Assembly (NCBI RefSeq): GCF_019200975.1
Contig: NZ_JAHTMR010000002.1
Coordinates: 479,679 to 543,678 of the forward strand
Length of the DNA: 64,000 nucleotides
Source: Pseudomonas sp. PD9R
Lineage (GTDB): Bacteria; Pseudomonadota; Gammaproteobacteria; Pseudomonadales; Pseudomonadaceae
Direction: 5' to 3'
Below the pieces are notes generated by a model. That model saw only the letters and a program-made list of their open reading frames with translations. It was not told the DNA's origin and made no database searches. Positions within the stretch are counted from its first letter, which is position 1; each line of letters opens with the position of its first letter. The position numbers and the translations under genes were made by a program. Positions 23,203-41,117 of the stretch are shown in pieces.

Positions 23203-23293
23203 TGTGGGAGCGAGCTTGCTCGCGAAGAGGGCGTGTCAGTCGACTTTAATGCTGACTGGCACACCGCCTTCGCGAGCAAGCTCGCTCCCACAG
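23203..23293. repeat. REPIN, family 2, full palindrome
   Basis: Arms gtgggagcgagcttgctcgc and its complement flank a centre with its own short inverted repeat (cagtcgac...gctgactg). Confidence 0.87.
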
Positions 23294-23308: not shown

Positions 23309-23578
23309 TCAGGATGGTTCGGCATCCATGCGCCGTGCAATGACATCCAGCACATCGCAACCGTCGCGCAACGGTATGGCACACAGCAATGCGAAGTCGC
23401 TGAGGATGACGGAGTCTGTGCTGATTTCACCGCGCATGGCGAGGTTTTCAAGGACCTGCGTCACGGCGCTGATTCGGTAGCTGGCGCTGCTGAGCAGGGA
23501 GTGCAGGGGTTGGGTGGTGTTGACGTAAAACGTGGGGAGATCGTCGGCGTTGCTGGTTAAAGCCATGAACTCTTGCAT
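23309..23578 (-). CDS. Small hypothetical protein behind a structured leader
   Basis: 89 residues starting MQEFMALTSNADDLPTFYV, with helix-forming stretches and no membrane segment. It is preceded by GTGGAG about 10 bases before the ATG, which is why this start is preferred over longer options. Length and layout recall the small DUF3077-type proteins of Pseudomonas, but I cannot confirm the family. The strongly folded leader upstream suggests control at the RNA level. Confidence 0.65.
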   Translation of the reverse strand: MQEFMALTSNADDLPTFYVNTTQPLHSLLSSASYRISAVTQVLENLAMRGEISTDSVILSDFALLCAIPLRDGCDVLDVIARRMDAEPS

Positions 23579-23610
23579 GAGTAAAGCTCCACTTAGTTGA
23601 GGTTTACCAG

Positions 23611-23706
23611 CCGATCGTCGCCAAACGAAAGGGAGGCAACTGTACGCAGGTTGGCGAACCGGAGTGGAAGCCGGCAGATCCGAAGATCTCCCGCGTACAG
23701 TCGCCA
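23611..23706 (-). promoter_or_regulatory. Structured RNA leader with three helices and a possible pseudoknot
   Basis: Read on the minus strand. P1 pairs 23693-23705 with 23635-23647 (13 bp, one G-U). Inside it are P2, 23685-23689 with 23676-23680 closed by a UUCG tetraloop, and P3, ccgg 23671-23674 with ccgg 23659-23662. UCGCCAA at 23651-23657 can pair with UUGGCGA at 23618-23624 outside P1, making a 7-bp pseudoknot. The 89-residue gene starts 40 bases downstream. Structure is seen; function is inference. Confidence 0.6.
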
Positions 23707-23946
23707 CAAAAGGACAACTCTACAGATGCAAAAACGCCTGCAAGCAAGCCAGTGCGCTTTTGCATTCCACTTCAGGTCGCCAAACCCGACACGCCATTTG
23801 GGCGTGCTCGGACTATAGGCCTCGTGGAAAAAGCACAGCAATGCGCAAGTGTACGGACATTTCCTAACGTCGTGTAGGACGCGGCTTGTTTGAAGGTACG
23901 AGTTGCTTTTGACTTAGGACGGGTACAATCCGCGCTCCGAACCACC

Positions 23947-24010: not shown

Positions 24011-24418
24011 TCAGCCCTGCTGCAACACCTTGAGCGCCGCCGAAGCCAGAAAACCCGAACGGCTTTTCTCTTCCGGGTGATGCAGCACGTACTCGTCAAT
24101 CCGGTTAAGCAGATAGCCAGGCAGGGTGATGTTCAGCTTCTGGGCCTTGCCCAAATATTTGGTAACGTCGATGTCCACCAATGCCCATGCACAGCCCGCG
24201 TATTTTGGGTTGGCTGCATGCAAGGTCACTTTGTTGGCGGGCGGAATCGGCGAACCGTCTTCGGCGAGAATCTCGAAGTGGCCTTCTATGGCTTCCCGAG
24301 CCATCGCCATCGCGTCATCCAGATCTTCCCCGGCGGAAAAGCATCCTGGAATGTCGGGGACTTCCACGCCCCAGGCGTGTTCGTCATCGCCCATTGAAAT
24401 CGAAATCGGGTAAAGCAT
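24011..24418 (-). CDS. hicB: HicB family antitoxin
   Basis: 135 residues. The N-terminal HicB fold has MLYPISISMGDD and VPDIPGCFSAGEDLDDAMAMAREAIE, a partial RNase H-like domain. The C-terminal part (INITLPGYLLNRIDEYV...) looks like a ribbon-helix-helix DNA-binding region. It should neutralise HicA and repress the pair. It lies 37 bases downstream of hicA, toxin first, which is the usual hicAB order. Confidence 0.92.
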   Translation of the reverse strand: MLYPISISMGDDEHAWGVEVPDIPGCFSAGEDLDDAMAMAREAIEGHFEILAEDGSPIPPANKVTLHAANPKYAGCAWALVDIDVTKYLGKAQKLNITLPGYLLNRIDEYVLHHPEEKSRSGFLASAALKVLQQG

Positions 24419-24455: not shown

Positions 24456-24635
24456 CTAGAGCAGCGCCTGTTGCAAAATACTGATGGCCGTTTTCTTGAG
24501 CAGGTCTTTTTTGGGATGTGGAACTGTCACCAGCCCCGGCTTAATTGAGTGCTTGAAGTGATGATGGCTGCCTCTGATTCGCACCAGATACCAGCCGTCC
24601 GCAATAATTTGGCTTATCAAAAATCGGCTATTCAC
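24456..24635 (-). CDS. hicA: HicA family mRNA interferase toxin, GTG start
   Basis: 59 residues with the start at GTG 24635, eight bases from AAGGAGGT, a very strong ribosome site. It has the HicA double-stranded-RNA-binding-like fold: NSRFLISQIIADGWYLVRI, then RGSHHHFKH with the catalytic His24, and VPHPKKDLLKKTAISILQQA. It is expected to cleave mRNA until bound by HicB. The gene is complete and all key residues are present. An ATG-only search misses it. Confidence 0.92.
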   Translation of the reverse strand: MNSRFLISQIIADGWYLVRIRGSHHHFKHSIKPGLVTVPHPKKDLLKKTAISILQQALL

Positions 24636-36326: not shown

Positions 36327-36439
36327 GGCATAACCCCCGGAGGCGATAGCGCATCAGCCTCGACCTGGGATGCGGGCCGTCCCGCAGTTTTTCGAAATGC
36401 ACCCGGGCCGTCCCGGATGACTGAAGATTTCGCCTTCCT

Positions 36440-40734: not shown

Positions 40735-40840
40735 TGGCTTGTCTCCCGGGCTTTTGTCCCGCCGTGTAACCTCAACTGGAGGTCGCCAACTCTCGGACCA
40801 GCCACTCGCCATTGCGAGCCGGAACCCTAGTCAGCCATTG
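40735..40840 (-). promoter_or_regulatory. Guanidine-I (ykkC) riboswitch
   Basis: On the minus strand the hallmark segments occur in order: CTAGGGTTCCG (40820-40830), CTGGTCCGAGAG (40790-40801) and ACGGCGGGACAAAAGCCCGG (40746-40765). GGCT near 40836 can close P1 with AGCC near 40737. A CACCG-TTCG-CGGTG hairpin at 40723-40736 abuts P1 and may be the expression platform, as no T-run terminator follows. Guanidine binding should switch on the downstream operon. Confidence 0.93.
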
Positions 40841-41117
40841 CAAATTGTGGTGCCGCGAACCTGTTTTGACTCCTGCACGCTTTTGCTTAAGCGAGAGCCG
40901 TGCCAAGTCCTGTCGAGGCGTCTGGCGCGGGGATTGCCGATCCCCGGGACGATGCAATAAGCGTTCACTGCTTCGTGATGGTGCGCCGGTGCACTGAGAT
41001 GCAGCGTGATCAGCCGCTGATCCGAAGTCGTCCGCCGCCCGGCACTCGGTGCAATATTGCCAGTCAAAACAGGTGTCAGTCGGCCTGTACCGACTGCGGG
41101 TCTTTCAGGAGGCCGCC
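40841..41117. other. Divergent promoter region between the guanidine operon and the lipoprotein genes
   Basis: About 275 bp beyond the riboswitch. It should hold promoters for both directions; I see no unambiguous -35/-10 pair and no further gene. Confidence 0.45.

Follow-up and report, generated by a model that had tools for sequence, protein, structure and literature searches.

The locus described here lies on the minus strand of the window, the whole stretch of 64,000 nucleotides of Pseudomonas sp. PD9R DNA that was analysed. A gene for a protein of 89 residues, with its start codon at 23576-23578, is preceded by a structured leader and followed by a methyltransferase gene, while a HicB-type antitoxin gene (Pfam; 24011-24418, minus strand) is present upstream of the leader. 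The small ORF before the HicB gene (24456-24635, minus strand) appears HicA-like by eye. Between the 89-residue gene and the methyltransferase gene there is a long inverted repeat (TGTGGGAGCGAGCTTGCTCGCG...CGCGAGCAAGCTCGCTCCCACA, 23203-23292), which we take to be of the REP type common in Pseudomonas. Elsewhere in the window, Guanidine-I (40741-40841) and Guanidine-II (36372-36419) riboswitches, both above cut-off and on the minus strand, are located less than 4.5 kb apart. The features of the leader and its gene are as follows.

23812..23841, minus strand: predicted sigma-70-like promoter (TTGCTG at 23836-23841, 18-nt spacer, TATAGT at 23812-23817)
23777..23783, minus strand: a1, upstream target copy for a' (TTGGCGA), 7/7 complementary to 23651-23657; phage P1 has its a1 in the corresponding place
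23765..23771, minus strand: b1, upstream target copy for the b' loop (AGTGGAA), 7/7 complementary to the loop TTCCACT
23730..23749, minus strand: terminator-like hairpin with T-run, between b1 and C4, inside an isrK-like segment (23731-23807)
23629..23711, minus strand: C4 antisense RNA with helices P1 (23690-23705/23635-23650), P2 (23676-23689) and P3 (23658-23675), by RF01695 and covariation
23663..23670, minus strand: C4 b' loop, which is the P3 loop, predicted to pair with b2 (6 nt) and b1 (7 nt)
23651..23657, minus strand: C4 a' arm (TCGCCAA), predicted to pair with a2 and a1, 7/7 each
23618..23624, minus strand: a2, downstream target (TTGGCGA), by 7/7 complementarity and covariation
23588..23593, minus strand: b2, target (AGTGGA) shortly before the start codon, sharing bases with the Shine-Dalgarno-like GTGGAG
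23309..23578, minus strand: gene of the 89-residue protein, a predicted two-helix hairpin with no family match

Covariance model search identifies the element as a C4 antisense RNA (Rfam RF01695) with a score of 69.6 bits (cut-off 45, E 1.7e-11); the C4 of phage P1 itself, taken as a yardstick with the same tool, scores 68.8 bits. C4 is the only Rfam match above cut-off at the element, and none of the 4227 Rfam families searched provides a riboswitch match there. At the level of sequence, we regard the membership of the element in the C4 family as firm, and the statement of the initial annotation that it could not be matched to a named class was wrong. The helices and the 7-base pairing described in that annotation are present on the minus strand, as sequence and fold confirm, with P2 being its UUCG hairpin and P3 its second hairpin, and a' the exact complement of a2. 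Its closing helix of 13 pairs is real but too short, as the helix has 16 pairs, two of them G-U. What it took for a possible pseudoknot is an exact complementarity, but the pairing is that of a C4 a' arm with its target a2. The second 7-base target copy at 23777-23783 and the pairings of the second-hairpin loop with 23588-23593 and 23765-23771 had not been noticed. The 135-nt leader folds with -53.4 kcal/mol, compared with a shuffle mean of -38.51 (sd 3.66; z -4.07; 0 of 200 shuffles as good). Together with the covariation described below, this upholds the description of the leader as structured and regulatory, with one more pairing that reaches beyond the helix.

The sequence layout of the family is present. 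Helices P1, P2 and P3 are accompanied by a free a' segment and a b' loop, a2 and b2 lie downstream (7/7 and 6 bases, with b2 at the ribosome binding site), and a1 and b1 lie upstream (7/7 each). We follow the phage P1 annotation and the available sections of PMC5320573 in calling the segment after P3 a' and the loop of P3 b'. The order of the leader (promoter-like site, a1, b1, C4, a2, b2, gene) is that of phage P1, whose record annotates promoter, a1, b1, C4, a2, b2 and icd in a row. In this comparison, which was made with P1 only, the fold, the a' and b' arms, the upstream and downstream positions of the target copies, a similar spacing and the -10 TATAGT of the P1 c4 promoter are shared. 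The b'/b2 match in the window comprises 6 bases only. A GG is present at the 5' end of closing helix P1 (23705 side). Models of the upstream part remain below cut-off in the window (RF03163 c4-a1b1, 27.1 of 46.7 bits; RF01394 isrK, 32 of 50 bits). The promoter-like site, a sequence prediction, precedes the entire element, so that prediction does not bear out a transcription start downstream of 23611, which the initial annotation had named as a refuting condition. Its TATAGT is present in all aligned leaders but L096 and L108 (28 of 30), and the exact promoter consensus is weak, being found at 14 of 102 Pseudomonas loci against 4.65 in shuffles. Upstream of the promoter, a block at about 23840-23882 (minus strand; GTCCTACA..A...GGAA.TGTCCGTA..CTTGCGCAT) is conserved in 28 of the 30 aligned leaders (not in L096 and L108) and is possibly a regulator site.

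The window element is not alone in its genome. The source genome has 17 C4 matches, all above cut-off, and a congener assembled as a single contig (G049) has 55, of which 52 are above and 3 below cut-off. These 72 copies formed our comparison set. With its own site directly downstream of C4, a' can form an uninterrupted run of 7 or more Watson-Crick pairs in 64/72 copies, compared with 3.8% of foreign combinations; with the upstream stretch, the figures are 64/72 and 5.5%. For the P3 loop, such runs are found with the own Shine-Dalgarno region in 51/72 (foreign 2.3%) and with the own upstream stretch in only 33/72 (foreign 7.2%). For covariation, 69 of the 72 copies were aligned, the three below the C4 cut-off being omitted; the structure was taken from the window copy and the a'/a2 pairing was not used for aligning. 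With a'/a2 included in the structure, 94.9% of the cells are paired, and the covariation score is 0.499. Shuffles score 0.245, with 0 of 500 attaining the real value, and slid versions score 0.065-0.133. The a'/a2 helix itself is 94.2% paired, with two-sided changes in 6 of its 7 pairs. The helices and the 7-base pairing thus covary among the paralogues, which was the check named in the initial annotation.

Scoring both arms together makes the addresses largely private. In the source genome, the own target is the unique best for all 17 C4 RNAs, and at least 6 pairs in both arms are present in 14/17 own but only 3/272 foreign combinations. Of the 55 C4 RNAs of G049, 43 have their own target as the unique best and 49 have it as best or tied, with at least 6 pairs in both arms in 43/55 own versus 14/2970 foreign combinations. 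The a' arm alone is not private (14 different 7-mers among the 17 own copies and 37 among the 55 of G049), and copies sharing a' differ in the second arm. Within a genome, copies are set apart by a', by b' or by the two together, and each C4 would therefore mainly serve its own gene. Addressed arms are missing at L073 (45.6 bits) and L076. Taken together, these observations make it very probable that the window element is a chromosomal C4 antisense RNA having its own two target pairs in the same leader.

Self-addressing extends beyond these two genomes. We also collected 60 further loci, 40 from Pseudomonas (best hit per genome) and 20 from other genera, and runs of at least 7 between a' and the downstream site are present in 38/40 and 16/20 of them, respectively; in an AT-rich genus of the same order, 27/29 loci are self-addressed (one further, truncated locus was omitted). 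A terminator-like hairpin between b1 and C4 is seen at 25/40 of the best-scoring Pseudomonas loci and 14/20 of those from other genera, compared with 11/55 in G049 (0.9-3.0 in shuffles across sets) and, with a T-run, 5/17 in the source genome, window included (0.9 in shuffles). As the hairpin is scarcer in the latter two sets, the chromosomal sets may have lost this part of the circuit to some extent.

Among 59 Pseudomonas genomes, the source included, a C4 match at E<=0.001 is present in 54, above cut-off in 53. Their counts, made with strict filters and possibly including some matches below cut-off, sum to 1003, with a median of 17, a maximum of 54 and at least 10 copies in 37 genomes. In a sample of the phylum, 42/299 genomes have a match, the copy numbers there being lower bounds (14 candidates scored per genome), and 0/14 control genomes have one. 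The Pseudomonas phages Phipami28, vB_Pae_CF145a and vB_Pae_U10 (L181, L182, L183) carry C4 and a1b1 elements above cut-off. No RNA feature is annotated in the stretches of them examined, and in U10 and Phipami28 an annotated ORF spans C4.

The 89-residue protein has no match in Pfam, NCBIfam, PHROG or PADLOC. Its gene is coding, as the differences at codon positions 1, 2 and 3 from 34 homologues (292, 112 and 1012) reveal, and judged by its sequence it is under purifying selection. Homologues (E<=1e-5) are present in 150 of 298 sampled Pseudomonas genomes, the source genome included. A scan of named genomes yielded 297 encoding stretches, of which the best 80, all from Pseudomonas, were used; with a model built from paralogues, C4 is found just upstream in 73 of these best 80, and a C4 match is missing upstream of the other 7 (L255, L274, L276, L280, L281, L289, L290). 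In this set, a' is TTCGCCAA in 58/64 leaders. Runs of at least 6 are found in 45/56 distinct leaders for b' with its own b2 (foreign 16.1%) and in 38/56 for b' with its own b1 (foreign 17.8%), the 56 being the 73 minus 9 whose P3 was missed by the pattern, with duplicates then removed.

A closer view is given by 30 close loci (29 and the window). All 30 have identical a' and a2, and 29 have retained a1, the exception being L096 with its different upstream sequence. The P3 loop varies in many of them, and b1 and b2 vary along with it (CCGTT/AACGG, GCCTT/AAGGC, CCATG/CATGG); L080 is one example of a poor fit at b2 among the orthologues. With the window counted in both, HicB lies upstream in 10/30 and a methyltransferase downstream in 7/30; at least one of the two is located within 1.5 kb at 15/30 close loci (14/29 without the window) and neither at 15/30. 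The neighbours are kept at only part of the close loci, and therefore the site appears to be common to several species but not to all relatives.

The predicted model of the 89-residue protein is a two-helix hairpin (mean pLDDT 85.0, pTM 0.72). Searched against PDB folds, this model had 0 matches at E<=0.001 (best E 1.3). With sequence profiles, DUF6124 had 0 matches among PDB sequences, and the 89-residue family did not get below E 0.08. A DUF6124 member is predicted to have the same two-helix layout in its C-terminal part (mean pLDDT 77.0, pTM 0.48), but profile comparison found no sequence link between the 89-residue family and DUF6124 (hhalign probability 0.5%) and gave no sign of a common origin.

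Across the two genomes covered in their entirety, the genes that follow C4 usually belong to DUF6124 (PF19619), which accounts for most of them, and to DUF3077 (PF11275), which accounts for some, with a few of the Bro-N antirepressor type. Behind the 17 own copies, 15 proteins were scanned and 10 DUF6124 and 2 DUF3077 were found among them; one further DUF3077 gene lies behind a coupled short ORF (L003), L008, L011 and L013 are without a family and L017 without an assignment. Conversely, 10/12 DUF6124 and 3/4 DUF3077 matches of the source genome are located directly behind a C4, the remaining DUF3077 match being one of the two remaining DUF6124 genes, which have no C4 (G000:C2:129763-129951 and C2:29136-29321; L179, L180). 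At L179, a leader-like GTGGCAGCTC stretch still stands before the DUF6124 gene, as after loss. In G049, an ORF of at least 60 residues is found at 49/55 loci (31 DUF6124, 3 DUF3077, 3 Bro-N, 12 without match), with one Bro-N locus (L075) having its C4 match below cut-off. The Bro-N gene of L055 starts with MIKVTPNPP, like DUF6124 proteins. At 55 of the 60 further loci, an ORF of at least 50 residues is present, among them 16 DUF6124, 6 Bro-N, 3 DUF3077, 2 Rha, 2 AntA, 2 HTH_35, 1 KilA-N and 1 SymE. The 40 Pseudomonas loci were kept out of the gene proportions because they are the best-scoring ones per genome and many have prophage-type ORFs.

In the DUF3077 genes of L003, L021 and L066, a programmed frameshift was considered and rejected, as a 34-38-residue ORF ends in an ATGA overlap instead. 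The overlap and a GGAGG Shine-Dalgarno-like site read, on their sequence, as translational coupling of the kind seen in icd-ant or orf45-anrP.

Within 1.5 kb of the 17 own copies, 48 mechanically chosen ORFs gave PHROG matches (E<=1e-5) in 21 families. The named ones are kinds that are also cellular (HicB-like, esterase, tRNA methyltransferase, kinase, methyltransferase, FabG-like, regulators), and the others are unnamed, including phrog_11823 of unknown function, matched by two ORFs (best E 9e-173). Capsid, terminase and integrase are absent from the PHROG matches within this distance, and prophage may lie beyond the 1.5 kb flank at single copies.

Sequence evidence covers the fold, the targets, the covariation, the addresses and the coding gene, and on this basis we propose the following course of events. 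Transcription would start just upstream of a1/b1, and some transcripts, by resemblance to isrK, would stop at the terminator-like hairpin and yield a short a1/b1 RNA. Read-through transcripts would carry C4 and the 89-residue gene together. RNase P would probably release C4 from them, as an RNA of about 77 nt if it follows the family, by cutting at the GG with which the closing helix starts, as in phage P1, for which processing and target binding are described in the available sections of PMC5320573, PMC8198154 and PMC12197685. From complementarity and covariation, a' is expected to pair with a2 and the b' loop of P3 with b2 at the Shine-Dalgarno region, so that ribosomes would be blocked and the 89-residue gene left untranslated. 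The a1/b1 copy might bind C4 as a decoy or activator.

The complementarity fits pairing in cis or in trans alike, and the whole device might act as a cis pseudoknot or alternative fold within one mRNA, with no free C4 RNA. The presence of a', b' and all their targets in one leader is consistent with this. So is the case of Gifsy-1, where, in the parts of PMC4825925 available, the long IsrK isoform is translationally inactive by internal pairing and the short IsrK activates its read-through partner in trans; by our own reading, the part of that partner concerned would be C4. In the 72 Pseudomonas leaders, moreover, the 3' strand of the C4 closing helix has a complement in a stretch like GTGGCAGCT that lies between a2 and b2, with a mean run of 5.28, above the 3.94 of shuffles. 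However, a stable cis pseudoknot looks strained on geometrical grounds because 10 nt (23625-23634) would have to bridge a helix of 16 pairs, the a1 copy is located on the opposite side of C4, and in phage P1 C4 is a processed RNA that binds its target mRNA (PMC5320573, PMC12197685, in the sections available). We consider the cis arrangement unlikely. A copy-specific pairing of the closing helix with the a2-b2 stretch was also considered and rejected, as in Pseudomonas own matches, although above shuffles, are hardly commoner than foreign ones. At L015, the a2-b2 stretch fits the unusual closing helix of the same copy (TGGCGAACT with AGTTCGCCA).

Our preferred reading, an antisense C4 acting on its own leader, leaves room for different roles of the protein. 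Proteins behind C4 are mostly of 80-130 residues and are predicted helical hairpins where modelled. Our leading, though tentative, guess is a small regulator whose binding partner would be a repressor or some other protein. It is favoured by the position of the gene, in the place that antirepressor operons have in phages, by the Bro-N genes and by the N-terminus that one of these has in common with DUF6124 proteins; a growth-inhibiting protein comes next and is a rather doubtful one. The latter would turn C4 into the RNA antitoxin of a type I-like toxin-antitoxin system. Many separately addressed copies in one chromosome are reminiscent of type I systems. The P1 C4 operon encodes Icd, a cell division inhibitor according to the available parts of the P1 literature, and at 1/20 C4 loci of other genera the ORF behind C4 belongs to the SymE toxin family (taken by eye to be L127). 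The size of the proteins and their predicted helical hairpins argue against such a system, as do the Pfam matches of 64 proteins from the two genomes, which include no toxin family, and the absence of PADLOC matches among the 15 own-genome proteins scanned. We regard a toxin-antitoxin role as improbable, with perhaps an outside chance.

It is quite improbable that the locus is a prophage remnant without present function. The switch itself is a phage one, relatives of several small proteins are found among phage families of unknown function (phrog_36471 in 2/15 and phrog_6327 in 3/15 own-genome proteins), two DUF6124 genes of the source genome lack C4 and some copies have weak arms. However, at least one neighbour of the window locus is kept in 14/29 other close loci, the gene appears to be under purifying selection, and arms and targets change together. 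A riboswitch or other ligand-sensing leader, as the initial annotation had suggested from a compact multi-helix fold upstream of a gene, is extremely improbable and is set aside on the Rfam result and the variation pattern. Members of the C4 family work through base pairing, and it is the pairing arms that vary. The partner of the 7-base arm is present upstream as well as downstream of C4, and among paralogues arm and partner change together as an antisense RNA and its target would. The same fold stands before genes of different families.

The antisense reading places the locus near three known systems. Compared with the C4 of phages P1 and P7, the window locus shows no phage hallmark gene within 1.5 kb, has the 89-residue gene in place of icd-ant, and holds one of 17 addressed copies in the genome. 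It is not a P1-type immunity operon (c4-icd-ant), since the putatively regulated gene has no antirepressor match and a methyltransferase gene comes next; elsewhere, Bro-N genes follow 3/55 C4 matches of G049, including the one (L075) below cut-off. With IsrK of Gifsy-1 (RF01394; PMC4825925, as far as its available text goes), the locus shares a promoter-like site, an a1/b1-like segment, a terminator-like hairpin and presumed read-through into a gene that would be under translational control, and a short ORF coupled to the next gene is present in L003, L021 and L066. The window copy differs in its isrK score below cut-off, and no coupled leader ORF is seen at the window locus. The Group 1 C4-like sRNAs of Acinetobacter baumannii are likewise many per chromosome (21 similar sequences) and variable in the a' loop; no target was settled on for them, and mRNAs of phage or host were proposed (PMC5320573, available sections). 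Here, each C4 is matched to sites in its own leader.

Many C4-like RNAs in one genome are thus already known from A. baumannii (PMC5320573, same sections), as is the C4 class itself; the new part is the large self-addressed C4 set before small genes. The open-access literature searched holds no description of C4 before DUF6124 or DUF3077 genes, nor of the self-addressed Pseudomonas set; in the portions of the papers available, DUF6124 is not mentioned and DUF3077 is mentioned once, in connection with furfural tolerance.

An element formerly without a class can now be named, and its supposed pseudoknot is seen as an antisense/target pair. It is possible, although we put it forward as a speculation, that Pseudomonas took the phage C4-antirepressor switch into its chromosomes and multiplied it to as many as about 50 translational switches, each with its own address and in control of one small, often two-helix protein. 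Such a repertoire would be directed against phage repressors or at the cell itself, and co-evolution of arms and targets would keep its addresses distinct. A cell with dozens of antisense RNAs that have the same fold, each matched to its gene by two short arms, would provide a natural set in which it can be tested how arms of 6-9 bases avoid cross-talk. The finding also gives a lead on DUF6124 and DUF3077, as genes that would be held off by C4 in the slot of the phage antirepressor, and it suggests that the C4-like sRNAs of Acinetobacter may primarily target their own transcripts.
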